Assembly (NCBI GenBank): GCA_013695475.1
Contig: JACDAJ010000173.1
Span: 1-32,890, forward strand
DNA length: 32,890 bases
Reading direction: 5' to 3'
DNA from: Rubrobacter sp.
GTDB taxonomy: Bacteria; Actinomycetota; Rubrobacteria; Rubrobacterales; Rubrobacteraceae
Below are positions 2,054 through 17,217 of the stretch, one piece after another (the stretch's first letter is position 1; every line of letters begins with the position of its first letter). The position numbers and the translations under genes were made by a program. Under the pieces are notes generated by a model. It saw only the letters and a program-made list of their open reading frames with translations, was not told where the DNA came from and searched no databases.

Positions 2054-3754
2054 ATGAGCAGCGACGAGGTAGGCCGACAGCCAGTGGCCGGGGGCGAGCC
2101 GGAGCCGGAGCGCCCGGAGCCGCCGAAGGATTATTTGCCGGGGCTGGCCGAGAACTGGAAGAATGACGCGGTCTCCGGGTTCGTCATCTTCCTCATCGCA
2201 CTTCCGCTGTGCCTCGGCATCGCGCTCGCTTCCGGGTTCCCGCCGATAGCCGGGATCATCTCCGGCATCATCGCGGGCATGCTCGTCTCGCTGATCAGCG
2301 GCTCGCATGTCACGATAAACGGCCCGGCGGCGGGTATGATCGTGATCGTCCTCGGAGCCGTCCAGGAACTCGGCGGCGGAGACGCGGCTCTCGGCTACCA
2401 ACTCGCGCTCGCCGTCGGCGTCGTGGCCGGGGTCATCCAGATCGGACTCGCGTTCATACGAGCCGGGAAACTCACCGGGTTCTTCGCCTCTTCGGTGATC
2501 CACGGCATGCTCGCCGGGATCGGCCTCATCATCATGGCCGGGCAAATCCACATCGCCCTCGGACGCGAAAACCCCGGCGAACACGGACTCGGAATTCTCA
2601 CCGCCATCCCACCGACTTTCTTGAATTTGAATCCGTATGTCGCGCTCATCGGGCTGGCGGCGGTTCTCATCATGGTTTTCTGGCCGAAGATGGGGAGGAT
2701 CGCCGGGATCGTCCCCGCCCCCCTCGTCGCGGTGGTCATCGGGACGCTCATGGCTATCGGCCTCGGCGTCGGGAGCGGCGCCCCGTATACGCTTTTCGGG
2801 AACACATACGAGACGGGGGCGCAGTTCCTCGTCCCGCTGCCGGAGGGCGGACTCCTCGCGGGATTCGCTTTCCCGGACTTCTCGCAAATACTCACCGGGA
2901 CTTCCATAAAGTGGATCTTCCTCTTCGTCTTCGTGGCGAGTTTGGAATCCCTCCTCACCGCCGAGGCGGTTGACAAAATAGACCCGTACAAACGCCAGTC
3001 GAACATGAACAAGGAATTGTTCGGCAAGGGCGTCGGGAACGCGCTTTCGAGCGGCATCGGCGGGCTGCCCATGATCGCCGAGGTCGTCCGCAGCAAAGCG
3101 AACATTTTGCAGGGCGCGAAAACCCGGTGGTCGAACTTCTTCCACGGCTTCTTCCTCCTCGCGTTCGTCCTCGCGGTGCCGGGGCTTTTGTCGCAGATTC
3201 CACTCTCCGCCCTCGCCGGAGTCCTTCTCGTCATCGGCTTCCGGCTCGCCCACCCGAAAGAATTCGGCCACGCGCTCCACGTCGGACGCACGGAGTTTTT
3301 GTTCATGCTCGTCACGGCGATCACCGTTCTTTTGACCGACCTCCTTATCGGGGTGGCGACCGGACTCATCGTGGCGTTCATCATCGCGTTCGTCGTCGGG
3401 CGCACGAAGCCGTCGAACGTTTTCAAGCCGAAGGTGGATATCCAGTCGGAGAACGGGACGGTTCCGGTCAATTTCTCGGGGGCGCTCGGGTTCCACAACT
3501 TCCTCGGGATTCGGAGTCGGTTGGATTCCGTGCCGGAAGGAAAGAACATCGTGATGGATTTCTCGGGGGTTCATTTCATAGACCACACGGTCATGGATCG
3601 CCTCTCCGACTTCGACCGCGTATACACCGACAACGGCGGCGAGGTCGAGTGGCGGAACATGGACCACCTCGAAGCCTCCGGCCACGACGACCTCTCGCCG
3701 AGGCGCGGGACGCCCGTGGCGGCGGAGGAGACAAGAACCCCGACTTCGGTATAG
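2054..3754 (+). CDS. SulP family anion (probable bicarbonate) transporter with STAS domain
   Basis: A 566-residue membrane protein. After a proline- and glutamate-rich tail of about 35 residues, it has the SulP core of about 12 hydrophobic segments (residues 38-450). This includes the early GSHVTINGPAAGMIV block, where the substrate site of SLC26/SulP proteins is built. Residues 465-545 match a short STAS domain (VNFSGALGFHNFL, then NIVMDFSGVHFIDHTVMDRL). SulP proteins move sulfate, bicarbonate or dicarboxylates, and BicA is the cyanobacterial Na+/HCO3- member. The position at the head of a DabA/antiporter cluster makes bicarbonate the best guess for substrate, but the sequence alone does not prove it. 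The start is set by a GAAGAGGGTGAGAG binding site next to ATG 2054. The stop lies 10 bp before the CBS gene. Confidence 0.88.
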   Translation: MSSDEVGRQPVAGGEPEPERPEPPKDYLPGLAENWKNDAVSGFVIFLIALPLCLGIALASGFPPIAGIISGIIAGMLVSLISGSHVTINGPAAGMIVIVLGAVQELGGGDAALGYQLALAVGVVAGVIQIGLAFIRAGKLTGFFASSVIHGMLAGIGLIIMAGQIHIALGRENPGEHGLGILTAIPPTFLNLNPYVALIGLAAVLIMVFWPKMGRIAGIVPAPLVAVVIGTLMAIGLGVGSGAPYTLFGNTYETGAQFLVPLPEGGLLAGFAFPDFSQILTGTSIKWIFLFVFVASLESLLTAEAVDKIDPYKRQSNMNKELFGKGVGNALSSGIGGLPMIAEVVRSKANILQGAKTRWSNFFHGFFLLAFVLAVPGLLSQIPLSALAGVLLVIGFRLAHPKEFGHALHVGRTEFLFMLVTAITVLLTDLLIGVATGLIVAFIIAFVVGRTKPSNVFKPKVDIQSENGTVPVNFSGALGFHNFLGIRSRLDSVPEGKNIVMDFSGVHFIDHTVMDRLSDFDRVYTDNGGEVEWRNMDHLEASGHDDLSPRRGTPVAAEETRTPTSV

Positions 3755-4205: not shown

Positions 4206-5684
4206 ATGGCTGTCATGAACAACATCCCTATCCTGAGCTTGATCGTCTGGCTGCCGCTCGTCGGCGTCGCGGTCGTCCTCTTCCTGCCCGCGAAGCAGGT
4301 GAAGGCGATTCAAGCCGTCGCGGTCGGGTGCGCCGGGGTGTCGTTCCTCCTTTGCTGGAGCCTCCTCTTCGCCTTCGACCGAGGCACGAGCGAACTCCAA
4401 TTCACCGAGCGAGCCGAGTGGATCCCCGACCTCGGCATGACATACTCCCTCGGCCTCGATGGCCTCTCTTTCCCCCTCCTTCTTCTCACCACCCTCGTCA
4501 CCCTCGCGGCGGTCGTCGCTTCTTTGAGCCTCATCCACGACCGGATAAAGGGATATTTCGCATGGTTCCTTCTTTTGGAGTTCGCGGTTCTCGGGGTTTT
4601 CGTGGCGCAGGATTGGTTCCTGTTTTACGTTTTCTATGAGGTCGGCCTCGTCCCGATGTTCTTCCTGATCGGCTTGTGGGGAGGGACGAGAAAAGACGTC
4701 GCGGCGATGAGCTTTTTCTTGTATACGCTCGTCGGTTCGATCTTCATGCTCCTCGGGATCATCGCGGTTTATCTCAACTCGGACCCCGGCACGTTCGATA
4801 TGCGCCAGCTTCTCGAGTCCCGCGACGGATGGACGGAGACGTTCCAGACCGGAGCTTTCCTCGCGTTTCTCGTCGGGTTCGCGGTGAAGATCCCGATCTT
4901 CCCGCTCCACGGCTGGCTGCCGCTCGCGCACGTCGAGGCCCCGACCCCCGTGAGCATGGTCCTCTCCGGCCTCCTCCTGAAAATGGGCGCATACGGCCTC
5001 ATGCGGGCCGGGGAGCTTTTGCCGCTCGGCCTCGAATGGTTCGCGCCGATTCTCCTCGCGCTCGGATTCATAAATATTTTGTATGGCGCGCTCCTCGCGT
5101 GGCGTCAGACGGACTTGAAATCCATCGTGGCCTTCTCATCCATCGACCATATGGGGTTCGTCCTCGTCGGCATCGCCGCGCTGAACGTCCTCGGGTTCAC
5201 CGGGGCTGTGATGATGATGGTGACGCACGGCATCATCTCGGCGGCTCTATTTTTCCTCGTCGGGGTTATTTATGAGCAGGCGCATACCCGCGACATGACG
5301 GATTTCAGCGGGCTTATGTCGAGTGTGCCGGTGTTTTCGATCCTCATTTCGCTTTCGTTCCTCGCTTCGATGGGGCTTCCGGGTTTGGCGCAGTTCGTGA
5401 GTGAGTTCCACGTTCTCGTCGGCGGTTTCCAGGAATGGGGGTTGTGGATCATCATCGCCCTCCTCGGGATCCTTCTCACGGCGGCGTATTCGCTGCGGAC
5501 CATCGGACGGATGGTGATGGGCGATGTGGACCCACGATGGGCGAACCTGAAAGACATCGGCGGGAGCGAACTCGTCGTCATCCTCCCCCTCGCCGCGCTC
5601 ATGCTCATACTCGGACTTTATCCGAGCGTGGCTCTCGGACTCATGAACGAAACGATGGCTCAATTTGCTGCCCTCTTCGGCTAG
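4206..5684 (+). CDS. NuoM-like antiporter subunit 1 of DAB-type cluster
   Basis: A 492-residue integral membrane protein of the Proton_antipo_M family with about 14 hydrophobic segments. It keeps the charged residues of the ion path. These are E145 in VFYEVGLVP, K228 in FAVKIPIFP, K259 in LLLKMGAYG and E400 in VSEFHVL, with the canonical HGWLPLAHVEAPTPVS loop between the lysines. Of the five antiporter-like proteins here it is closest to true NuoM. The start is ATG 4206 with GAGGAG upstream. The stop is 10 bp before dabA, with the dabA binding site in the gap. With no NuoBCDI genes around, a role as proton or sodium channel in a DabA complex is more likely than complex I. Confidence 0.88.
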   Translation: MAVMNNIPILSLIVWLPLVGVAVVLFLPAKQVKAIQAVAVGCAGVSFLLCWSLLFAFDRGTSELQFTERAEWIPDLGMTYSLGLDGLSFPLLLLTTLVTLAAVVASLSLIHDRIKGYFAWFLLLEFAVLGVFVAQDWFLFYVFYEVGLVPMFFLIGLWGGTRKDVAAMSFFLYTLVGSIFMLLGIIAVYLNSDPGTFDMRQLLESRDGWTETFQTGAFLAFLVGFAVKIPIFPLHGWLPLAHVEAPTPVSMVLSGLLLKMGAYGLMRAGELLPLGLEWFAPILLALGFINILYGALLAWRQTDLKSIVAFSSIDHMGFVLVGIAALNVLGFTGAVMMMVTHGIISAALFFLVGVIYEQAHTRDMTDFSGLMSSVPVFSILISLSFLASMGLPGLAQFVSEFHVLVGGFQEWGLWIIIALLGILLTAAYSLRTIGRMVMGDVDPRWANLKDIGGSELVVILPLAALMLILGLYPSVALGLMNETMAQFAALFG

Positions 5685-5694
5685 AAAGGGACAC

Positions 5695-8600
5695 ATGCTC
5701 CCCGACATCACAAACGAAATGCGCCACCACCTCAAGCACGAGGTGGATCATTTCAGCCACCTCCTCGCCGGACAAGGCCCGATCGAAACCTTCGTCCACC
5801 ACAACACACTCCACGGCCTCCAACATCTCCCCTTCGAGGTCGCGGTCGTCGAGGCCGAACGCATTCTCGGAGGCCGCGGATATTTGCCGAACGAAGAATT
5901 CCGCGCCCTTTACGCGAGAGGCCGCATCTCCGACGACGACATATCCGCCGCCTTCGAGAGACGCGAATTCCCCGACGAACCGAACGTGGAGGTCGGGAAA
6001 TGGCGCATCGAAGCCGGGGAGGTCCGGCGCGTCCATCTCCTCCGGGGCATCGAGCCACTCGATCCCGCCCGGCTCGGCTTCGAAGTCCACGAACGAGGCG
6101 CGACCCGCCGCCTCCACGACGACGTCCCGGACGACACCCGGGCATCGCTCATGGAAAAAGCGAAAGACGAACTCGCCCGGAGCATGGACCGCATAGGCCG
6201 CGAATGGACGCTCTCGGACTGGATCGGCGTCCATCTCAATCTCGATCCGGCGAAACGCCTCCGCGTCGAAGTCCGAGGCGAAATGGAGGAAGGCCGGGGC
6301 GAATCGGGAAATACGGAAGCCGGACTTCGAGCGATGGGAATCCCCGAAGAACGGTGGGACGGGTACCTCGCGTGCATAGACCGGCGTTTCGGAGGCGCGT
6401 CTGTGAAAGATGCCGAGCGCGGTCGAGCCGGAGACAAGCCTGTGAAAGACGCGAAGCGCGGACAAATTGAAGATGCGTCCGTGAACGATGCCGGGCGCGG
6501 TCGAATCGGGGACGCTCCCGTGACCGAGGCGGAGCGAGATCAAATACGCCGTCTCTGGCTCGATGCGGAGGCGCGTATTGTGAGGAGGCTCGCCCGGCGG
6601 CATTTCGGAGTGCGCGGGACTTTTTCTGACATCGCCCGTCGTTTCGAGGCGGATTTGGAGGGGTATGCGGTTCTTTCGCTTTGGGGGGCGTGCCTCGGGG
6701 CGCATGGCCTCGAAGACCCGCTCTCGACGACGGATTCGGAGCATTTCGGGGAGCGGAATCCGGACGGGGCGGCGGAGCGGATGGAGGAGCGTTTCCGGCA
6801 CATGGAGCGGTGGGGAGGGCCGCCCATCCCACTCACCGAAGAACTCGGGAACGCCGTCCGGGAAGTCGTGCATGGGGAGATGTCTCGTTTGGAAGGAAGC
6901 TCCGAAAACGGCGGCGGCGACGAGGCTTCGACTTTGGAGGCGGCGCATCTTTGCTGGCTGGTTCTCCACGACCTCGGGAAGGCCGGGCTGAATCGGAGGG
7001 GGCTTGCCGCGCTCGAGATTCTTCTTTCTTTGCGGGGGGAGCATTCCGAGCTTTTGGCGGAGCTTCACAGGCGGGACCCGCGGCGCCGGATGCGCGAGTT
7101 CATGAGCCGGAGCATCGAGGCGGAGATGTGTCGGCTCGGGCGCGACAAATCCCACAGCGATTTCTTGATGGAGATCGTCGGTGAGGACGTGAGCGGGCGG
7201 GTGAACGAGTATGTGATCAAACGCTGCGCGGCGTTCCTCGACGAGGGTTTGGCGGCGTGGCGGCTTCCGGGACGCGCTCTCGGGTTTTATGACTCGTGGA
7301 AGAGCCTCGCCGGGAAAGACCGGACTTTGGAGTTCGACAACCTTCCCGGATGGCGCGACTCACTCCATCATTTGCCCGCGCTGGCGAGGGATGCGGTTAT
7401 ACAAAGGCTTCGGGAGCTTGGCGTTCGGGAGGAGGATTGGGGGGATTATCTGGGACGTTTGATCCTTCAGCTTCCCGGATGGGCGGGCATGATCCAATGG
7501 CGAGAAACCCACCCGCAATACGCCCGCCAGGAAACACAACCGATCGACCTCATCCAATACCTCGCCGTCCGCCTTTTCTACGAAACACTCCTCATCCAGA
7601 AAATCTGCGGCGAAACGTGGCGCCTCGACGGAAGCGTACACAGCCTCCGCGCATACTTCGAGTCCCACCCCTCCGAATTCTTCGTCCGGCGCGAAATGCG
7701 GAAAGGGAACCTCCCCGACTACCTCGCCGAACAATCCCGGAACCTCGCCGCCGACCCGTCCGCTTCCGGCGGCCCCGAAGACGAACGCTGGCAAACCCTC
7801 GCCGACATGATCTGGGCGCACCGCGAAAGCGACGCCGCCTCGGCGATATGCGGCGACACATGGCGACTCTTCCATCTCGCGCAATTCCTCGCCCTCACAG
7901 GCGAGGAAATCCGTTCGCTCTCCGAAAAAGAAAGAGTGCGTTTGCTCGGAATCGTGGATGGGTTTCCGGGTTCGGAGCATGGGCCGGTTTGGCTCACGGC
8001 TTATGAGCGGAATTATCGGGACGGGATTTTGAACGCGCTCTCCGAGAATCGTGGGCGGGGTCGCTGGAAGACGCGGGAGACGCGCCCGAAGGCGCAGGTC
8101 GTGTATTGCATTGACGAGCGCGAGGAGGCGATTCGCCGCCACTTCGAGGAGATAAACCCGGAGTATGAGACATTCGGAGCGGCGGGGTTCTTCGGGGTTG
8201 CGATGCAATATCAGGCTTTGGATGACCACGGGACGACCCCGCTTTGCCCGGCGGTTGTCAGCCCGATAAACAAGATCGTGGAGGTTCAGCGCCCGGAGGA
8301 GGCCGAGCGGCTTGCGACGCACAATACGCGCTCGAAGTGGGAGGAGACTTTCCACAACGCATACTGGGAGACGGAGCGGAACTCCGTTTCGGCGTATTTC
8401 CTCATCCACCTCGTCGGGCTTTTGCAAAGCGTGCCTTTGATCGGGAGGATCCTCGCCCCCCGCGCATATTCGGTGGTCGCGGATAAAGTCCATCACCGCG
8501 TCGTCCCATCGGTCCGGACCTCCCTCGCGCTCGACGCCGGGGAGACTCACAAGCTCGACGGCGCGTACAAAGTCGGGTTCGTCATCGAGGAGCAGGCGAA

Positions 8601-9684
8601 TCAAGTCGAGACGATGCTCCGGAACCTCGGCCTGACATACGGTTTCGCTCGCATCGTGCTTTTCAGCGGACACGGCTCCGCGAGCATAAACAACCCCCAC
8701 GAATCGGCGCACGACTGCGGAGCATGCGGCGGAAAACACGGCGGCCCGAACGCCCGAGCCTTCGCCGCGATGGCGAACCGCCCGGAAGTCCGGGAAATCC
8801 TCCGGGAGCGCGGCATCGAAATACCGGACGACACATGGTTCGTCGGTTCGCAGCACAACACGGCCAACGAGCTTTATACGTACTCCGACATCGAGGACAT
8901 CCCGGAATCTCTCCGCGAGGATTTCGCGAGCCTCACCGCCGACCTCGACGAGGCGCGCGCCCGCTCCGCGCAGGAAAGATGCCGACGCTTCGCCTCCGCC
9001 CCGAAGGACGTCTCCCCGAAGAAATCCCTCCGCCACATCGAAGGTCGATCCGTGGATTTGAGTCAAGTACGGCCGGAATGGGGCCATGCGACGAACGCCT
9101 TCGCCGTCGTCGGGCGGCGCTCGATCACGCGCGGGCTTTTCCTCGACCGGAGGCCGTTCCTCATTTCGTATGACCCCACACAAGACCCGGACGGAACCAT
9201 CGTCGAGAGGATACTCCTCGCCGTCGGTCCGGTCGGGGCGGGCATAAACCTCGAATATTATTTCTCCACCGTGGACAACAAAAAGTATGGCTGCGACACG
9301 AAAGTTCCGCACAACGTGTCCGGCCTCATCGGGGTGATGGAGGGGGCGATGAGCGACCTCCGGACCGGGCTTCCGCGGCAGATGGTGGAGATCCACGAGG
9401 CCATGCGCCTCCAACTCATAGTGGACGCGAAACCCGAGATACTCGGCGAGATATACGGTCGCCAGCCCGGAATTCAAGAACTTCTCGACAACGCATGGGT
9501 GCATCTCATCGCAATGGACCCGGACACGGAGGAGTTCCATATGTTCGTCCCCGGAGTCGGTTTCGTACTCTGGGACGAGCCGTTGAAACCGCTTCCGAAA
9601 GCAGATTCCTCCTTCGAATGGTATCGGGGGAAGACGGACTTCCTTCCTCCGGCGCACATCGTCCATAATGGAGGGGGGAGATAA
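5695..9684 (+). CDS. dabA: DabA-type inorganic carbon transporter subunit (UPF0753/DUF2309), oversized
   Basis: About 1329 residues, against roughly 800-1050 for most DabA proteins. DabA resembles a beta-carbonic anhydrase and with DabB hydrates CO2 one way to bicarbonate in the cytoplasm. The N-terminus has the family block GPIETFVHHNTLHGLQHLPF. A zinc site like that of Halothiobacillus DabA2 (C351, D353, H524, C539) is visible as C805 and D807 in CIDEREE, H993 in FSGHGSA and C1008 in DCGACGG, with the same C-x-D and 15-residue H-to-C spacing. LPGWAGMI, a conserved patch, lies near 595. Residues 235-286 are four 13-residue tandem repeats within a charged insert. An upstream in-frame ATG at 5665 lies inside the previous gene; ATG 5695 follows AAAGGGA and is preferred. 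The protein is soluble and probably docks on the membrane subunits. Confidence 0.93.
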   Translation: MLPDITNEMRHHLKHEVDHFSHLLAGQGPIETFVHHNTLHGLQHLPFEVAVVEAERILGGRGYLPNEEFRALYARGRISDDDISAAFERREFPDEPNVEVGKWRIEAGEVRRVHLLRGIEPLDPARLGFEVHERGATRRLHDDVPDDTRASLMEKAKDELARSMDRIGREWTLSDWIGVHLNLDPAKRLRVEVRGEMEEGRGESGNTEAGLRAMGIPEERWDGYLACIDRRFGGASVKDAERGRAGDKPVKDAKRGQIEDASVNDAGRGRIGDAPVTEAERDQIRRLWLDAEARIVRRLARRHFGVRGTFSDIARRFEADLEGYAVLSLWGACLGAHGLEDPLSTTDSEHFGERNPDGAAERMEERFRHMERWGGPPIPLTEELGNAVREVVHGEMSRLEGSSENGGGDEASTLEAAHLCWLVLHDLGKAGLNRRGLAALEILLSLRGEHSELLAELHRRDPRRRMREFMSRSIEAEMCRLGRDKSHSDFLMEIVGEDVSGRVNEYVIKRCAAFLDEGLAAWRLPGRALGFYDSWKSLAGKDRTLEFDNLPGWRDSLHHLPALARDAVIQRLRELGVREEDWGDYLGRLILQLPGWAGMIQWRETHPQYARQETQPIDLIQYLAVRLFYETLLIQKICGETWRLDGSVHSLRAYFESHPSEFFVRREMRKGNLPDYLAEQSRNLAADPSASGGPEDERWQTLADMIWAHRESDAASAICGDTWRLFHLAQFLALTGEEIRSLSEKERVRLLGIVDGFPGSEHGPVWLTAYERNYRDGILNALSENRGRGRWKTRETRPKAQVVYCIDEREEAIRRHFEEINPEYETFGAAGFFGVAMQYQALDDHGTTPLCPAVVSPINKIVEVQRPEEAERLATHNTRSKWEETFHNAYWETERNSVSAYFLIHLVGLLQSVPLIGRILAPRAYSVVADKVHHRVVPSVRTSLALDAGETHKLDGAYKVGFVIEEQANQVETMLRNLGLTYGFARIVLFSGHGSASINNPHESAHDCGACGGKHGGPNARAFAAMANRPEVREILRERGIEIPDDTWFVGSQHNTANELYTYSDIEDIPESLREDFASLTADLDEARARSAQERCRRFASAPKDVSPKKSLRHIEGRSVDLSQVRPEWGHATNAFAVVGRRSITRGLFLDRRPFLISYDPTQDPDGTIVERILLAVGPVGAGINLEYYFSTVDNKKYGCDTKVPHNVSGLIGVMEGAMSDLRTGLPRQMVEIHEAMRLQLIVDAKPEILGEIYGRQPGIQELLDNAWVHLIAMDPDTEEFHMFVPGVGFVLWDEPLKPLPKADSSFEWYRGKTDFLPPAHIVHNGGGR
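6397..6552 (+). repeat. Four 39-bp in-frame tandem repeats inside dabA
   Basis: Four consecutive 39-bp units start at 6397, 6436, 6475 and 6514. They encode the 13-residue blocks ASVKDAERGRAGD, KPVKDAKRGQIED, ASVNDAGRGRIGD and APVTEAERDQIRR. The repeat is charged and likely forms a flexible or helical linker. It keeps the frame because 39 is a multiple of three. Units have diverged, so the expansion is not recent. Confidence 0.85.
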
Positions 9685-10027: not shown

Positions 10028-12364
10028 ATGTTCGAACTTCTCGTGATCCTCATCGTCGCGCTCCCGCTTTTGGCGGCTCTCGCCAATGGAGTGAACGCGC
10101 TCTTCGGCGAGCGGTATTCGTATGTCGCCACGTATCGGGTGGCGTGCGGCGCCATATTTCTCTCCTTCCTCGGGGCGGTGTGGATTTTCGTCGGGGTTCT
10201 TCTCGACCCGGCGCCTCGGGAGGTCGTTGTTTATCGGTGGCTTTTCAGCGGCGACCTCAATGTGGACTTCGCTTTCCTCATAGATTCGCTTTCCGCGATC
10301 ATGATGCTCGTCACGACGGGCATCGGGTTTTTGATCGCCGTCTTCTCCGTGAACTATATGCACAACGAGCGGGGCTTCTCGCGCTTCTTCACGGTGACGC
10401 CTTTGTTCGTGTTCGCGATGCTCGTTTTGGTGATGGCGAATAACTATGTCCTTCTCTTTCTCGGGTGGGAGAGCGTGGGAGTTTGCTCGTATTTGCTCAT
10501 AAGTTATTACTACGAGCGACCCGCCTCCGCGAAGGCCGGGACGAAGGCGTTCGTCATGAACCGCATCGGCGACGCGGGGTTCCTCATCGGCGTTTTCCTC
10601 ATCGTCGCCACTTTCCAGACGACGGACTTTTCGGGCGTATTCTCACAGGCCGAGTCGGCGAGTACGGCGACGCTCACCGCCATCGGGCTTTGCCTTCTCG
10701 TCGGGGCGGTCGGGAAATCGGCGCAACTTCCGCTCACGACTTGGTTGGCGCGGGCGATGGAGGGGCCGACGCCGTCGAGCGCGCTCATCCACGCCGCGAC
10801 GATGGTGACGGCGGGGGTGTATATGATCGCCCGCAGCCACGTCATCTACGACCTCGCCCCGAACGCCCTCCTCGCAGTCGCCATAGTCGGCGCGGCTACG
10901 GCTCTCTTCGGGGCGATGGTCGGCCTCGTCCAGACGGACATAAAAAGTATTCTGGCGTATTCGACGACCTCGCAACTCGGACTCATGTTCCTCGCGTGCG
11001 GCCTCGGAGCTTATCCGGTGGCAATTTTCCACCTCGTCGCGCATGCTTTTTTCAAGACGCTTCTTTTCCTCACCGCGCCCTCGATACTCCATCATCTCCA
11101 CGGCGGGGCGGATGCCCGGAAGGTCGGGCGGGTGAAACAGAGCGTCCCGGTTTTGTATCAGTTTTTCCTCATCGGGGCGGTGGGGCTTATGGCGCTTCCG
11201 TTCGTTTCGGTATGGTGGCAGAGTGATGCCCTCGGGGCGTTTTCGGGCGGTTTGTATATCCTCGTCGCGGTCGGTGTGATCGCGGTTTTCGCCGCCGCTT
11301 TCGCCACGAGCCGGATGGTTCATGAATCGTTCTTCGAGGACGCGCATGGAGATCATGGCGCGTCGGCTTCGCCGTGGAAGTTTGTGGCGCCGCTCGTTAT
11401 TTTGGCGGCGGTCGGGGGGGTCGGGGTGGCGGTCGGGATATTGCCGGGCGGACTCGATGGGACTTGGTTTCAGGAATTTCTGGCTCCGGTGGTTTCGGCG
11501 CAGCCGGGGGTTCCGGGGGGGAGTGTGCCGCTCGCGGCGGCTTTGCTCGGGCTTTTGATCCTCCTTCTCGTCGTCGGGTGGTTCGCGCCACTTTTCCTCG
11601 ACCGTTTCAGGCCGGAGCGTCCGGGACTCCTCTTTTTCAAGACGCGGGGGATTTACAACCTCGCCCTCAACCGTTTCTGGCTGGATGAGATGTATGACGC
11701 GGCTTTCGTTCGGACGAGCAAGAAACTGGGGCATCTCCTCGAACGGGTGGACGCGGCGTTCATTGACCGGGCGACGGGCGTCGAGGCTCCGGCGAGGCGT
11801 GTTCAGACGGCGCGGGAAACTTGGGAGGAGCAACGCCTCATCAGCCACGCCGCCACCGAGCCGACCTCGACGTGGGATGAGGAGGAAAGGAAGGAGAAGG
11901 CCGCTCTCGGTGGCGCGGCGGGGGTTCTCGGGGCTTTGACGCAGGCGGGAGGCGGGGCTTCGGGGTGGGTCGAGCGGGAGGGGGTCAGTCGGGCGCCGGG
12001 GATTCTCGGGACTTTGACGAGGGTGAGCGGCGGTGCTTCGGATTTCGTGGAGAGGGGAATTCGGCGGGCGCCGGGGGTTCTCGGGTGGCTGACCGGGTTG
12101 AGCGGGAGCATCTCGAACTCGATGGAGAGGGGTGTGGACCGGATCCCGGACATGCTCGAACGACTGACCGAGGGTGTGGTTTCGCTCTCGGTGTGGGTTG
12201 AGAAGGCCACGTTCACCGGGGTTCATGTGAGCATGCCACAGGCGAGCGGCTTCCTCGGACGCGCCATGACGAAGACCGAGGAGGTCATCGGGCGCCCGGT
12301 GGTCATCGGGGGGATCATTCTGGTTTCACTCTCCGCCATTTTAGTGAGGGCGATGTGGCTATGA
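10028..12364 (+). CDS. NuoL/DabB-like antiporter subunit with enlarged C-terminal arm
   Basis: A 778-residue membrane protein; E. coli NuoL has 613 residues. The core (1-545) has the NuoL signatures E148 in LGWESVGVCSYLLI, K230 in VGKSAQLPLTTWL, AMEGPTPSSALIHAATMVTAGVYMI, K306 in DIKSILAYSTTSQLG and K343 in FFKTLLFL. LNRFWLDEMYD near 550 is the usual sign before the lateral helix. Instead of a short arm there are about 200 residues containing four 25-26-residue repeats (632-732), then a final hydrophobic segment (about 757-778). This is the best DabB candidate of the cluster. It ends in an ATGA overlap with the next gene. By inference the arm runs along the neighbouring antiporter subunits. 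It is predicted to carry protons or sodium ions. Confidence 0.88.
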   Translation: MFELLVILIVALPLLAALANGVNALFGERYSYVATYRVACGAIFLSFLGAVWIFVGVLLDPAPREVVVYRWLFSGDLNVDFAFLIDSLSAIMMLVTTGIGFLIAVFSVNYMHNERGFSRFFTVTPLFVFAMLVLVMANNYVLLFLGWESVGVCSYLLISYYYERPASAKAGTKAFVMNRIGDAGFLIGVFLIVATFQTTDFSGVFSQAESASTATLTAIGLCLLVGAVGKSAQLPLTTWLARAMEGPTPSSALIHAATMVTAGVYMIARSHVIYDLAPNALLAVAIVGAATALFGAMVGLVQTDIKSILAYSTTSQLGLMFLACGLGAYPVAIFHLVAHAFFKTLLFLTAPSILHHLHGGADARKVGRVKQSVPVLYQFFLIGAVGLMALPFVSVWWQSDALGAFSGGLYILVAVGVIAVFAAAFATSRMVHESFFEDAHGDHGASASPWKFVAPLVILAAVGGVGVAVGILPGGLDGTWFQEFLAPVVSAQPGVPGGSVPLAAALLGLLILLLVVGWFAPLFLDRFRPERPGLLFFKTRGIYNLALNRFWLDEMYDAAFVRTSKKLGHLLERVDAAFIDRATGVEAPARRVQTARETWEEQRLISHAATEPTSTWDEEERKEKAALGGAAGVLGALTQAGGGASGWVEREGVSRAPGILGTLTRVSGGASDFVERGIRRAPGVLGWLTGLSGSISNSMERGVDRIPDMLERLTEGVVSLSVWVEKATFTGVHVSMPQASGFLGRAMTKTEEVIGRPVVIGGIILVSLSAILVRAMWL
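11921..12223 (+). repeat. Four 75-78-bp in-frame repeats encoding the lateral arm
   Basis: Units begin at residues 632, 658, 683 and 708 of the NuoL-like protein. Each reads like RAPGILGTLTRVSGGASDFV followed by ERGIR. The first three are close copies in DNA and protein; the fourth is diverged (RIPDMLERLTEGVVSLSVWV). The pattern is amphipathic, with Gly/Ser turns in the middle. It is absent from ordinary NuoL and DabB as far as I know these families. Confidence 0.8.
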
Positions 12365-14175
12365 ACGAAGTCACGGCGATGGAGCAGATCGGGTTCCCCA
12401 TTTTGAGCGTTTTGCTTTTCCTCCCGGTGGTGTTCATGGTCGCCCTCGCTTTCGTGAAGAACGAGCAGCTCGCGTACCGGATCGGGCTGGCGGGGGCGGC
12501 ACTCACTTTCATCCTCGCGGCGTTCCTCGCGTACAGTTTCCGGATCGGGACGTCGGACATGCAATTCGTCGAACGGCTCGGGCCGCTTCCGGGGATCGGG
12601 GTCGGATATTATCTCGGCGTGGATGGGGTGAGCATTCTTTTCATCCCGGTTACGGCACTTCTCGCTTTGCTCGTCGTGCTTTATGCGGAGTATTCCGTTC
12701 AGGCGGACGCCCGGCATTATTTGATGGCGACGCTCGGCCTCGAAGCGACCATGCTCGGGGCTTTCCTCTCCCTCGACCTCGTGCTTTTCTGGGCTTTCTT
12801 CGTCCTCGAACTCGTTCCGGCTTATTTCCTCATCACGCGGTGGGGAACCGGGGATCGGCGGCGGGAGGCGGCTTTCTCGTATATTTATTTCATGCTCACG
12901 GGGGCGGCGCTCATGCTCGTGGGGATGGTTCTCCTCGCGGTGAATCACAGCATGGTCGCGGGGTCGGGACTGTCTTTCGATTTCGTCGCGCTCCTCGATG
13001 TCCCGGTGTCGGAGAGTTTGCAGACCGTTATTTTCTTCCTTTTGTTCATCGGGTTCGCGGTGAAAGCTCCTTTGTTCCCGCTCCATACGTGGATGCCGAA
13101 GGTTTTGGAGGAGGGGCCGGTTGTGGGGATGAGTGTTTTTCTGGTGGGGATCAAGCTCGGGACGTATGGGATGCTCCGGTTCATCATTCCGCTTTTGCCG
13201 GAGGCCGCGAGGGAGTGGCTGTGGCTCATGGCGGTTCTCGGAGCGGTGAGCATTGTGTATGGAGCCATGATCGCACTCATACAAACGAACCTTCGGCGGC
13301 TTCTCGCGTTTGCGAGCGTGAGCCATATGGGGGTCGTGGTTTTGAGTATTTTCACGCTGAATATTTATGGCCTCGAAGGCGGGCTTTTGCAAATGATCAA
13401 CTTCGGCGTGGCCGGGGCGGGACTCTTCTTCGTGGCGGGGTTCATAAACACCCGCGTCGGGCCGCCGGAACTCTCATCGCTCGGCGGCGTTTCGACGAAC
13501 GCCCCGTGGCTGACCGTCGCCTTCCTCGTCATCGCGCTCGCGACGGTCGGGCTTCCCGGCACGGGTGGGTTCAATGGGGAGCATCTCGTTCTCATCGGGG
13601 CGTTCGAGGTTCATTGGGCGTTGTCCATAGCCGCCGGGTCGGCCATATTTTTGACGGCGGCGTATTTCCTGTGGTATTTCCAGCGGGCGTTTCTCGGCGA
13701 CGTCAACGAGCGCACCGTCCACAAAATGAAGGATCTCCGGCTTCGGGAGATGGTCATCACGCTCTCGCTCGGGGCTGTGATCTTTTGGATCGGCCTCGCG
13801 ACAACGCCGTTCGTCGAAAGAATGCGCCCCTCCCTCGAAGCATTGGAAACCCGCGCCGGAGTCACTTCGCCCGACAGCTTTGCCGAGAGTGGTGAGGGGC
13901 AAAGTTCCGAGGCGTCCATCGCACGTGTGAATGATGTTCCGTTTGCGGGTGCGGAGGGTGGAAACCCGGAGCCGATCTCCGATGCCCGCCTCGAAAACCG
14001 TGAGTCGGGGAAGGCGAGGGAGCGAGGTATTCGCCGCCGAAGCCTCCACCGTATCCGGCGAAAGTACGTCGAGCGGGAAGGCGCGAGCGTCGGAGATGAG
14101 CGGGTCGAGAATGACCCCACTCCCCACTCCCCACTCCCCACTCCCGATCTTTCCGACCGAAGGGAGCGACCATGA
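12361..14175 (+). CDS. NuoM-like antiporter subunit 2, with repeat-derived C-terminal tail
   Basis: About 604 residues. The start is ATG 12361 in the ATGA overlap with the NuoL-like stop; GTG 12355 is an alternative. The ion-path residues fall at nearly the same numbers as in E. coli NuoM: E150 in FVLELVPAY, K235 in FAVKAPLFP, K265 in VGIKLGTYG and E407 in NGEHLVLIG. The loop after HTWMP is KVLEEGPVVGMS in place of the usual AHTEAPT, a feature shared with the next gene. The membrane part ends near residue 490. The remaining tail of about 110 residues is hydrophilic and of low complexity, and residues 540-595 are encoded by a copy of the dispersed element found between genes elsewhere in this window. 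The stop overlaps the next start as ATGA. Confidence 0.87.
   Translation: MNEVTAMEQIGFPILSVLLFLPVVFMVALAFVKNEQLAYRIGLAGAALTFILAAFLAYSFRIGTSDMQFVERLGPLPGIGVGYYLGVDGVSILFIPVTALLALLVVLYAEYSVQADARHYLMATLGLEATMLGAFLSLDLVLFWAFFVLELVPAYFLITRWGTGDRRREAAFSYIYFMLTGAALMLVGMVLLAVNHSMVAGSGLSFDFVALLDVPVSESLQTVIFFLLFIGFAVKAPLFPLHTWMPKVLEEGPVVGMSVFLVGIKLGTYGMLRFIIPLLPEAAREWLWLMAVLGAVSIVYGAMIALIQTNLRRLLAFASVSHMGVVVLSIFTLNIYGLEGGLLQMINFGVAGAGLFFVAGFINTRVGPPELSSLGGVSTNAPWLTVAFLVIALATVGLPGTGGFNGEHLVLIGAFEVHWALSIAAGSAIFLTAAYFLWYFQRAFLGDVNERTVHKMKDLRLREMVITLSLGAVIFWIGLATTPFVERMRPSLEALETRAGVTSPDSFAESGEGQSSEASIARVNDVPFAGAEGGNPEPISDARLENRESGKARERGIRRRSLHRIRRKYVEREGASVGDERVENDPTPHSPLPTPDLSDRRERP
13979..14145 (-). repeat. 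Dispersed heptamer-headed element, copy D, inside a coding region
   Basis: Read on the minus strand it starts with four CCCCACT/AGTGGGG heptamers (14115-14142). It then has CTCGACGTACTTTCGCCG (14056-14073), 16 of 18 bases identical to copy B at 18567-18584. It ends with CCGACTCACGG and a GGCGGGCATCGG tail. On the plus strand it is translated as residues 540-595 of NuoM-like subunit 2 without a stop. Confidence 0.6.
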
Positions 14176-15731
14176 TTCTCGAAGAAGTGTTCGCCATCGA
14201 GCAGATCGGGTTCCCCATATTAAGCACGCTCATCCTCCTTCCCGTGCTTTGCGCGGTGGTTCTCGCTTTCGTCCGGGACGACGGACTCGCCCGGAAGGTG
14301 GCTTTCGGGGGGGCTTCGCTGACGCTCGTTCTCGCGCTCGTTATGGCCGTCGGGTTCGTTTCGGGGACGTCGGATATCCAGTTCGCCGAAAGGGCGGAGT
14401 GGATGCCGAGCATCGGGGTCGGGTATTTCGTGGGGGTGGATGGGATAAGCGTCCTCTTTATTCCACTCACGGCTTTCCTCACCCTGCTCGTGATGCTTCT
14501 TTCGTGGGGGACGGTCCGGTTTTTGACGAAGGGGTATTTGATCGCCCTTCTCGGACTCGAAGCGGCGACCATCGGGGTCTTCGCTTCGCTCGACCTTCTT
14601 TTGTTTTTCGTGTTTTGGGAACTCATGCTCGTGCCGAGCTATTTCCTTTTGAAGATGTGGGGAACGGGGCCGCGCCGCCAATACGCCGGGACGAAGTATG
14701 TGATGTATATGCTCGTCGGTTCGGCGCCGTTGCTCGTCGGAATAGTCGTTCTCGGGGTGAATCATTTCAATGTGACGGGGGAGTATTCGTTTGATTTCGT
14801 CGCGCTTTTGGAGACTCCGGCTTCGGCGGGCATCCAAACTTTGATCTTTTTCCTCCTCGCGTTCGGGTTCGCGGTGAAGGGGCCGCTTTTCCCGTTCCAC
14901 ACGTGGATGGCTTCAGTGTTCTCGGAGGGGCCGGTGGGGATGAGCGTGATGCTCATCGGGCTGAAAATGGGGATTTACGGATTCATCCGCTTCGCCATCC
15001 CGCTCGCCCCCGAGGCGGCGAGCGAATGGTTTTGGCTCATCGCCGTCCTCGGTTTGATCGCGATTATTTATGGCGCCCTCATCGCGCTCGTCCAGCCGAA
15101 CCTCCGCCGCCTCCTCGCTTTTTCGAGCGTGAGCCACGTGGGACTCGCGACGCTCGGGATGTTCACTTTGAGCACTCAGGGTTTTCAGGGCGGCATCCTC
15201 ATGCTCGTGAACATGGGCATCGCGAGCGCCGGGCTTTTCTTCCTCGCGGGCTTCCTTTATGCGCGAACCGGGTCGTGGGAACTCGGGTCTTTCGGGGGAG
15301 CGGCGCGGACTATGCCGCTCCTCGCGGTGTTTTTCTTCATCGTCGGTCTGGCGAGCATCGGGACGCCCGGCACGAGCGGGTTCCCGGCGGAGTTCCTTAT
15401 TTTCCTCGGCGCTTTCCAGGTTCATTGGGCGCTCGCGGTCGTGGCGGTGGTCGGGATAATTTTGAGTGCGGGATATTTCTTTGTTTATTATGAGCGGGCG
15501 TTTTTCGGGCCGGTCACGCGCGACGCGGTTCGGAAGGCGACCGACCTCCGGCCTCGGGAGACGGCCATCGCGGCGGCTCTCGTCATCGTCATTTTCTTCA
15601 TCGGGCTTTTCCCCGCTCCGCTTTTGAACATGACGAGCGGCTCGACGGAGGCTCTGGCGGAGAGGATCGAAGCCGGCCCGTCCACGCAACTCGCACAGGA
15701 TGAACTCCGGGGGGTGGGAGATGGAGATTAA
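14172..15731 (+). CDS. NuoM-like antiporter subunit 3
   Basis: A 519-residue membrane protein and tandem paralogue of the preceding gene. The starts of the two proteins align (EQIGFPILS), and 20 bases at 14199-14218 are identical to 12382-12401. It keeps E150 in FWELMLVPSY, K236 in FAVKGPLFP, K265 in IGLKMGIYG and E407 in PAEFLIFLG. The post-HTWM loop (ASVFSEGPVGMS) departs from NuoM as in its twin. ATG 14172 overlaps the previous stop (ATGA) and has AGGGAG upstream. The end overlaps the next gene by 11 bp. It is expected to add one more proton or sodium channel to the membrane assembly. Confidence 0.88.
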   Translation: MILEEVFAIEQIGFPILSTLILLPVLCAVVLAFVRDDGLARKVAFGGASLTLVLALVMAVGFVSGTSDIQFAERAEWMPSIGVGYFVGVDGISVLFIPLTAFLTLLVMLLSWGTVRFLTKGYLIALLGLEAATIGVFASLDLLLFFVFWELMLVPSYFLLKMWGTGPRRQYAGTKYVMYMLVGSAPLLVGIVVLGVNHFNVTGEYSFDFVALLETPASAGIQTLIFFLLAFGFAVKGPLFPFHTWMASVFSEGPVGMSVMLIGLKMGIYGFIRFAIPLAPEAASEWFWLIAVLGLIAIIYGALIALVQPNLRRLLAFSSVSHVGLATLGMFTLSTQGFQGGILMLVNMGIASAGLFFLAGFLYARTGSWELGSFGGAARTMPLLAVFFFIVGLASIGTPGTSGFPAEFLIFLGAFQVHWALAVVAVVGIILSAGYFFVYYERAFFGPVTRDAVRKATDLRPRETAIAAALVIVIFFIGLFPAPLLNMTSGSTEALAERIEAGPSTQLAQDELRGVGDGD

Positions 15732-17217
15732 TTCGTTCGCGCCTTTTCTGGCGATGGCGGTTCCTTTGCTCGGGGTCGCGCTCATATATGCGGCTCGGAA
15801 CAGTCCGAATGTCCGGGAGGGATGTTCACTCGGGGCGGCTTCGATCCAGTTTCTCGTCGTCCTCACGATGGTTCCGGCGGTGCTTGCCGGGAACACGCTT
15901 CACTTCACGCTTTTCCCGTTTTTGCCGCAAGTTTCGATCGCGCTCCGGGTGGACGCGCTCGGGATTTTGCTCGCTCTCGTCGCGTCGTTTTTGTGGCTTC
16001 TCACGGTGGTTTATTCCATCGGGTACATGCGTGCGCTCGGGGAGAGCCATCAAACGAGGTTTTTTGCGTGCTTTGCGATCACGCTCGCGGCGACGATGGG
16101 GATCGCGTTTTCGGCGAACCTTCTCACGATGTATGTTTTCTATGAAATCCTGACGTTTGTGACGTATCCGCTCGTTACTCATGAGGGGACTCGGGAGGCT
16201 GTGGCGGCTGGGCGGAGGTATCTTTTTTATCATCTCGGGGCTTCGCTCGTGTTCATGATGCCCGCTGTTTTCCTGACGTACATCATCTCCGGCACGTTCG
16301 ATTTCCAGTCGGGAGGGGTGTTTGCGGCTGGGGCGGGCGGGGCGGTTTTGGTGATTGTTTATTTCATGTTTTTGGCGGGGGCGGCGAAGGCGGCTCTCAT
16401 GCCCCTTCACGGCTGGCTGCCGAATGCGATGGTCGCGCCCGTTCCGGTGAGCGCGCTTTTGCATGCGGTGGCCGTCGTCAATGTGGGCGTATTCGTGATA
16501 CTCCGGGTGATCCTCGATGTTTTCGGGCCGGAGCTTATGGGGGAATTGAATCTCGGGTTCGTGACGGCGATCATCGCTTCGTTCACTATTTTGGTGGCTT
16601 CGTTTTATGCGTTCACGGTTGACAATATAAAGGGGATTCTCGCGTATTCGACCATCGGGCAGCTTTCTTATATGGTGCTTGGCGTGTCGCTTCTCAGCCC
16701 CGAGAGCATGACGGGTGGGATCATCCACATCGCCAACCACGCCTTCGGGAAGATCACGCTGTTTTTCTGCGCCGGATCGATATATGTCGCCGCCCGCACT
16801 TTGAAAGTTTCGGAGATGGGTGGGATCGCCCGTCTCATGCCGTGGACGGCGGGGGCGTTCGCGGTTGGGGCGGTGAGCATCGTCGGCATTCCGCCGACCG
16901 CCGGGTTCATCACGAAATGGTACCTTTTCATCGGAACGATTCAGGCCGGGCAGATCGCATTCTTCTTCGTCCTTTTGATAAGCACGCTCCTCTCCGCCGC
17001 ATATTATTTGCGGGTGTTCCGCATGATCTTCCTCGGAAGCTCCGAGGAGAGCAGCGAAGAACCTTCCGAACCCGCCAAAGATTCGTCCTCGAAGGGTTCA
17101 GTCAAAGAAGGCGCCTTCTTCATTGTTTTCCCGCTGGCATTGTGCGCGGCCATATCCATCGGGCTTGGGATTTATCCGAACTTCCTTCTCGAGTTGGCGC
17201 GGCTGGCGATTCCGTGA
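15721..17217 (+). CDS. MrpD/NuoN-like antiporter subunit
   Basis: About 498 residues from ATG 15721, which has GGGGGTGGGAG just upstream; ATG 15700 is also in frame. It has about 14 hydrophobic segments. E142 lies in VFYEILTFVTYPLV, K223 in GAAKAALMPLHGWLPNAM, and further lysines in DNIKGILAYSTIGQ and HAFGKITLFF. The wording resembles MrpD and the membrane subunits of energy-converting hydrogenases more than NuoN of complex I. A serine- and glutamate-rich loop near residues 440-465 (SSEESSEEPSEPAKDSSSKG) is unusual. As the last gene of the cluster it would be the fifth antiporter-like subunit. Its stop is followed directly, in the same frame, by a vapC remnant. Confidence 0.87.
   Translation: MEINSFAPFLAMAVPLLGVALIYAARNSPNVREGCSLGAASIQFLVVLTMVPAVLAGNTLHFTLFPFLPQVSIALRVDALGILLALVASFLWLLTVVYSIGYMRALGESHQTRFFACFAITLAATMGIAFSANLLTMYVFYEILTFVTYPLVTHEGTREAVAAGRRYLFYHLGASLVFMMPAVFLTYIISGTFDFQSGGVFAAGAGGAVLVIVYFMFLAGAAKAALMPLHGWLPNAMVAPVPVSALLHAVAVVNVGVFVILRVILDVFGPELMGELNLGFVTAIIASFTILVASFYAFTVDNIKGILAYSTIGQLSYMVLGVSLLSPESMTGGIIHIANHAFGKITLFFCAGSIYVAARTLKVSEMGGIARLMPWTAGAFAVGAVSIVGIPPTAGFITKWYLFIGTIQAGQIAFFFVLLISTLLSAAYYLRVFRMIFLGSSEESSEEPSEPAKDSSSKGSVKEGAFFIVFPLALCAAISIGLGIYPNFLLELARLAIP

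Follow-up and report, generated by a model that had tools for sequence, protein, structure and literature searches.

Multiplied arm units in the NuoL-like subunit of a DabA-linked array of antiporter-like genes

The NuoL-like subunit (L) encoded in the window, by which we mean the whole 32,890-nucleotide stretch analyzed, carries a greatly lengthened lateral arm that contains four tandem units, and its gene lies next to a gene for DabA. Arm length is likely not set by the number of antiporter genes in the DabA-linked family to which the cluster belongs. Our main reading, to which we assign a probability of roughly 0.5, is that the products of the cluster would make a DabA-linked, complex-I-like machine in which ion flow is coupled to CO2 hydration, with the arm as a strap and its surplus units at the DabA end.

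The genes of the cluster stand in the order SulP-M1-DabA-L-M2-M3-D, and five of them (M1, L, M2, M3, and D) are antiporter-like:

2054..3754, + strand: SulP-family anion transporter (Pfam PF00916, E 4.9e-58)
4206..5684, + strand: M1, NuoM-like antiporter subunit (TIGR01972, E 2.5e-158)
5665..9684, + strand: DabA, large form (PF10070, E 4.7e-251)
10028..12364, + strand: L, NuoL-like subunit with the long arm (778-aa ORF)
12355..14175, + strand: M2, NuoM-like subunit (TIGR01972)
14172..15731, + strand: M3, NuoM-like subunit (TIGR01972)
15700..17217, + strand: D, MrpD-like subunit (best NCBIfam model NF006236, 611.9 bits, cut-off of 663 not reached)

The cluster is flanked by SulP before M1 and by an SDR gene after D, where SDR, SDR, PadR, thiolase, SnoaL-like, abhydrolase, and PhaC genes follow (Pfam/NCBIfam). 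The SulP product scores under the NCBIfam cut-offs for the SulP subfamily and BicA, and a SulP gene adjoins the cluster in related Chloroflexota loci too. DabA is 1339 aa long from a TTG, with an uncertain start (an ATG lies at 5695). The original prediction placed L in a complex I setting and missed DabA as its neighbor. No nuoN, nuoH, nuoJ, or nuoK and no peripheral electron-transfer genes were found among the annotated neighbors, so a complex I with extra subunits is rejected; the cluster is a headless array, linked to DabA, in which five genes are antiporter-like. Other PF00361 genes of the same genome, which is 92% complete, lie on contigs C158 and C75 (complex I antiporter genes) and elsewhere, and NuoN/H/J/K and the peripheral subunits may be supplied in trans. 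No MrpB, C, E, F, or G gene stands beside the cluster, and the overlapping L, M2, M3, and D leave no room for them. RuBisCO was searched for in the same genome and not found, so any use of inorganic carbon is probably not for RuBisCO.

The cluster, or contig-edge fragments of it, is present in 13 Chloroflexota loci: the window, L018 (a named Chloroflexi MAG), L103, L104/L137, L105, L106/L134, L132, L133, L141, L142, L144/L145, L147, and G540, the last counted only through its 93%-identical L; contig ends cut some of the 13, and not all seven genes are visible in each. Separately, internal repeats occur in the window DabA too: its insertion holds a 78-bp tandem repeat at 6397-6545 (1.9 copies, 76% match; SVKDAERGRAGDKPVKDAKRG-like).

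L scores 556.8 bits against NF005141, the NCBIfam NuoL model, barely above the cut-off of 556, and matches TIGR01974 at an E value of 7.8e-166; both NuoL models end on L near residue 595. The parts of its arm are as follows:

11681..11698, + strand: LDEMYD motif, start of the lateral arm (residues 552-557)
11915..11992, + strand: repeat unit 1 (residues 630-655)
11993..12067, + strand: repeat unit 2 (residues 656-680)
12068..12142, + strand: repeat unit 3 (residues 681-705)
12143..12217, + strand: repeat unit 4, diverged (residues 706-730)
12290..12361, + strand: last hydrophobic segment, the transmembrane (TM) anchor of the arm (AlphaFold2 model: helix 747-777)

The last TM begins at residue 755, and the stretch between it and LDEMYD, estimated beforehand at about 200 residues, measures 197; it was correctly recognized as a NuoL lateral arm and is far longer than the canonical one. 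The four tandem repeats of 25-26 residues are likewise borne out, the units beginning at residues 630, 656, 681, and 706 (nt 11915-12217) at spacings of 26, 25, and 25. Any two of units 1-3 agree at 11-14 of 25 residues, while unit 4 is identical to the others at only 7 of 25. The best ungapped self-alignment of the arm scores 99, compared with a mean of 7.7 (SD 7.6) and a maximum of 37 in 500 shuffles of the arm, so the repeats are real. They are visible only as protein: DNA identity between units is 41-67%, and Tandem Repeats Finder run on the DNA does not list them. Across 11 window-type arms the best periods are 25-29, with none of 60 shuffles reaching the observed score in 10 of the 11 and a single shuffle of 60 doing so in the eleventh, L141. 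The description of the repeats as amphipathic stands in part, as hydrophobicity, averaged over the units, peaks at an angle of 95-100 degrees, near the alpha-helical value, but Gly and Pro make up 21% of the units versus 11% of canonical arms.

One explanation for such an arm, in line with the original proposal that arm and subunit number grew together, is that each repeat spans one neighboring antiporter, so that the four repeats would correspond to M1, M2, M3, and D. Arms were therefore compared across loci, taking as length the stretch between the conserved DE motif and the last TM, and for complex I the loci with adequate flanks were counted. Here the proposal holds. The arm is 54-59 residues long (~55) in 22 of the 25 measurable complex I loci with three antiporter genes and 80-82 in 14 of 14 measurable loci with four (Fisher p 4.5e-8 for arm class against gene number; L066, with an atypical arm of 19, was left out, and two three-gene loci were not measurable). 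A separate four-gene deltaproteobacterial locus, L083, fits this relation, which is nevertheless not phylogenetically independent, as most four-gene loci are Nitrospirota. Three complex I loci with three antiporter genes (L042, L055, and L090) also speak against the proposal, having arms of 80-81, lengthened by one 26-residue unit; they resemble Complex_I_1 of the Manganitrophaceae as reported, with three genes and one extra arm unit. In its favor, a helical unit of 26 residues is ~39 Å long, near the spacing of antiporter subunits, and the window offers a rough match of four repeats to four other antiporter genes. The model is also already in print, both for 2M complex I and for MrpD2 of Manganitrophaceae (PMC9040806).

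The DabA-linked clusters depart from this pattern. Window-type clusters have five antiporter genes throughout, and yet their arms range over 179-220 residues, changing by whole units: with the same genes as the window, L018 has one unit fewer and L144 an extra one of 27 residues. The window arm, 202 residues by the DE-to-TM measure, compares with ~107 expected from gene count, a surplus of 3-4 units. A second DabA-linked type, found in Nitrospirota/Nitrospinota, has the order SulP-DabA-MrpE-F-G-MbhDE-B-C-D-L-M, with D, L, and M as its only antiporter genes, and is exemplified by one locus:

L161:4697-17709: DabA, a nearly complete Mrp set, NuoL, and NuoM in one operon

The same operon, often with SulP, occurs in L162, L166, L167, L169, L170, and L209-L212. 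Although all have the same D, L, and M, the arms of this Mrp type come in three sizes: 55 (L167), 109-111 (L161, L162, L166, and L206-L208), and 135-138 (L169, L170, and L209-L212). Long arms are thus present in 12 of 13 loci, L167 being the exception, and among the loci with DabA in the operon 27-residue repeats occur in the arms of all but L167; the surplus over gene count is ~2-3 units. Overall, arm sizes are quantized, at 55, 80-82, 109-111, and 135-138, with 179-220 in the window type. The predicted growth of arm and subunit number together therefore describes complex I but fails for DabA-linked clusters, whether at five genes or at three, and one repeat per neighboring antiporter is unlikely as the explanation of the window arm.

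Phylogenetic comparison points to the source of the arm. In a tree of 89 antiporter-like proteins, L nests in the NuoL clade of Nitrospirota 2M complex I, with L019 as its sister (support 0.967). M2 and M3 pair with a support of 0.999 and fall jointly within the distal NuoM clade of 2M complex I, arguing for a duplication; M1 forms its own clade and does not come from a 2M NuoM, and D groups with an MrpD-like protein on contig C23 of the same genome. None of the five window antiporters groups with DabB, and this is also the outcome of a second tree, in which L and DabB are more densely sampled. Together the trees show the L gene to derive from a Nitrospirota-type 2M complex I. The identification of L as a DabB was considered and is rejected by the trees. 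The Mrp-type L, on the other hand, is sister to DabB in the second tree (support 0.992). A Nitrospirae MAG, G298, has a 2M complex I whose L is the sister of the window L and also a window-type DabA, a 1482-aa open frame (L172:8979-13424) on a contig without any PF00361 gene.

The repeats themselves tell a similar story. Among long-armed complex I NuoLs, L042, L090, L041, L023, and L086 show a period of 26, and no shuffle of 60 reaches their scores; for L055 one of 60 does, and L019 has no clear period. Judged by this periodicity, the arm insert of these NuoLs repeats the lateral-helix element in tandem. The 2M insert, used as a profile, matches the repeats in register in the window (units 1 and 4), L103, and L225 (p 0.004-0.006) and in L018 (22 bits, with none of 500 shuffles as good). 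Matches at p<=0.006 extend over the window, L103, L018, L225, L141, and L133, and L105 and four f2-type arms give 0.06-0.37, all these p values being somewhat optimistic, as the 'EK/ER' anchor at which units were cut was picked by eye. With a profile of the Mrp-type unit, 53 of 71 complex I arms show the canonical lateral element at p<=0.005, but most window-type arms give no clear match, and we therefore do not claim direct homology of the two repeat sets. The window repeats are very likely multiplied, homologous lateral-helix units. The suggested link to complex I with a second NuoM is thereby upheld, with trees and in-register matches tracing the window arm to the 2M insert, and the comparisons show that it grew through repeated tandem duplication of a lateral-helix unit of ~26 residues.

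Would such an arm be a straight rod? The same AlphaFold2 pipeline that gives one continuous 74-residue arm helix (557-630) for a 2M NuoL control, L041, breaks the window arm into helices 549-583 and 589-607 followed by short ones, for example 683-702 and 706-727, which match units 3 and 4; pLDDT in the repeat region is below 50 and just two sequences cover it, making this weak evidence for broken helices. Arms of the window type have a mean of 10.4 prolines, versus 0.9 in complex I. With ~10 prolines, 21% Gly and Pro, and no continuous modeled helix, the window arm is probably a segmented strap and not a straight ruler. A straight helix over the whole arm was rejected as unlikely on account of the prolines and the AlphaFold2 breaks. 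In Foldseek searches the window L model falls on complex I NuoL chains.

These features bear on the idea that the arm is a ruler for copies of an antiporter subunit, with one gene product, M for example, reused, so that length follows stoichiometry and not genes. This modular scheme, in which unit count would set the number of antiporter modules per complex, accommodates the gain and loss of whole units, the surplus (~2-3 units for Mrp-type and 3-4 for window-type arms), and the tight complex I relation. If it were true, a DabA-driven CO2 pump could shift its ion-to-CO2 ratio by gaining or losing repeats of 75-81 bp. We know of no complex-I-type array with two copies of one antiporter subunit, however, and the prolines and low helix confidence of window-type arms argue against a straight ruler there; we consider this scheme improbable.

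The repeats might instead have expanded in tandem within a flexible cytoplasmic linker that tolerates them and whose length has no role. Copy number does vary among relatives, and the repeats are rich in Gly and Pro and modeled at low confidence. Against this, dN/dS of the repeats is 0.12 relative to G540, the 93%-identical relative, where the membrane core gives 0.07, and 0.25 relative to G260; at 0.12-0.25 the repeats are not free-running junk and are, by this measure, under purifying selection. A long arm and a terminal TM are moreover kept in every measured window-type locus (families f1, f2, and f44), and long arms prevail in the Mrp type. We regard a length without role as doubtful, slightly less likely than one repeat per antiporter and slightly more so than the ruler for copies.

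Evidence for the DabA-linked machine comes from the TM12 region of L. The DabA finger of the DAB2 structure is inserted into DabB2 at TM12-13, with DabA Glu444 in the place of NuoL Lys399/Asp400, and changing this finger-tip Glu to Gln abolishes activity (PMC13144422). The corresponding site of L, by alignment, is:

11219..11233, + strand: TM12 site of L, where complex I 'SKDEI' is replaced by 'QSDAL' and the Lys is lost

Complex I NuoLs in the alignments keep SKDxI/V. The motif is deleted in f2 members of the window type (L142 is unreadable in that alignment), Mrp-type L proteins have an SGPYE-like motif without the Lys, and DabB has lost it as well. Since the two L types have separate origins, the window type in a 2M NuoL and the Mrp type next to its sister DabB, this loss looks convergent. 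M1, M3, and D retain TM5 Glu, TM7 Lys, and TM12 Glu/Lys; in M2 the TM7 Lys and TM12 Glu are present and the TM5 Glu is displaced. As L lacks the TM12 Lys, like DabB, and M1, M3, and D keep a TM12 Glu/Lys, L is the probable dock of DabA, a placement we favor somewhat over others. The window DabA conserves the Zn ligands of DabA2 (9rd0_A) as Cys815/His1003/Cys1018 and has the Asp-x-Arg motif; by analogy with its DAB homologues, it is predicted to hydrate CO2. Position Glu444 of DabA2 is His915 in the window DabA (nt 8407-8409); the finger-tip residue is mostly Glu in two-gene DABs, Asp in the Mrp type, and His, Asp, or Gln in the window type.

The antiporter subunits show changes of their own. 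M2 of the window (12355-14175) and of L103, L018, L105, L106, L132, L133, and L141 reads 'FFVLELV' or 'FFVAELI' where other NuoM-type proteins have 'FWE', displacing the proton-path TM5 Glu in all aligned M2 copies. In the second NuoM of Nitrospirota 2M complex I, 'SIAP' replaces the TM7 Lys motif 'VKxP', a substitution that calls into question whether this subunit would pump protons in the usual way:

L019:13380-15209, L020:11999-13612, L023:13624-15219, L041:6151-7803: 'SIAP' NuoM copies

We therefore envisage the DabA-linked machine as follows, on the strength of homology and gene order. The gene products would form one putative complex, with L in the role of DabB and the membrane finger of DabA seated in L at the TM12 site, as in DAB2. 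Through L and the attached antiporters, DabA would couple ion flow to CO2 hydration. The arm may lie on the cytoplasmic side, where DabA is, as short amphipathic helices broken at 'APG', acting as a lateral strap that touches DabA and ties L to the four other antiporter subunits and the DabA-bearing end. Surplus units might then be spent on this docked end, with its displaced TM12-TM15 and DabA contact, rather than on more pumps. A surplus over gene count in two separately derived DabA-linked L lineages favors such a role. The machine as a whole has against it the long arms of L206-L208, which lack DabA in the operon position (two have a divergent DabA-DabB pair nearby), and the His, Asp, or Gln that window-type finger tips carry in place of Glu. 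That surplus units serve the DabA end is thus a tentative proposal, somewhat short of even odds.

Several known systems are close to the window cluster. Nitrospirota 2M complex I (Chadwick 2018), as described in citing papers, has a NuoL with one 26-residue arm insert (PMC9040806, PMC6606698). Like the window, it combines a NuoL with ~26-residue arm units and tandem NuoM genes; its L gave rise to window L and its distal M to M2/M3, and its insert profile matches the repeats. The window differs in having more than one unit, an arm of 197-202 versus 80-82 residues, an L without the TM12 Lys, and DabA in place of adjacent NuoN/H/J/K and a peripheral arm. Complex_I_3 of "Ca. Manganitrophaceae" likewise counts five pumping subunits, and the lateral helix of its distal MrpD2 holds a 26-residue insert, but, unlike the window, it is described as complex I, with one insert only and no mention of DabA (PMC9040806). 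The MrpD-like subunit recalls Mrp antiporters, in which the lateral helix of MrpA lies on the cytoplasmic surface (PMC9568556); the window lacks MrpB/C/E/F/G genes, whereas the Nitrospirota/Nitrospinota sister type has them.

Gene neighborhoods of this kind were drawn in 2017 as COGNAT "clade C" operons, with ybcC/DUF2309 upstream of nuoL and with SulP and NuoM genes, and membrane subunit number was proposed to relate to the number of ions moved (PMC5700660). As far as the main text of that paper goes, the neighborhood logic is that of the window cluster, and the arm, the repeats, and a 2M origin are not mentioned. No description of multi-unit arms, Mrp-DabA hybrid arms, TM12 loss in window-type L, or arm variation at fixed gene content was found in the open-access literature searched. 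The cluster type was therefore already sketched, and the arm units appear undescribed. For complex I it is an open question what role the NuoL lateral arm plays and whether the arm is matched in length to the number of pump modules, and DabA-linked clusters are natural variants in which arm units vary at fixed pump genes and the two can be separated.

Another known system is the DAB complex (DAB2 structure 9rd0, PMC13144422), which shares with the window a DabA with all Zn ligands and an adjoining NuoL-like partner without the TM12 Lys. The differences are that L lies outside the DabB clade, that there are five antiporter-like genes versus one, that DabB2 has only a short lateral helix, and that the finger-tip Glu of DabA is His in the window. 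Through a 2M NuoL that lost its TM12 Lys, DabA would be coupled to complex-I-type pumps by a second route, and the cluster suggests that uncultured Chloroflexota may accumulate CO2 with a multi-pump machine.
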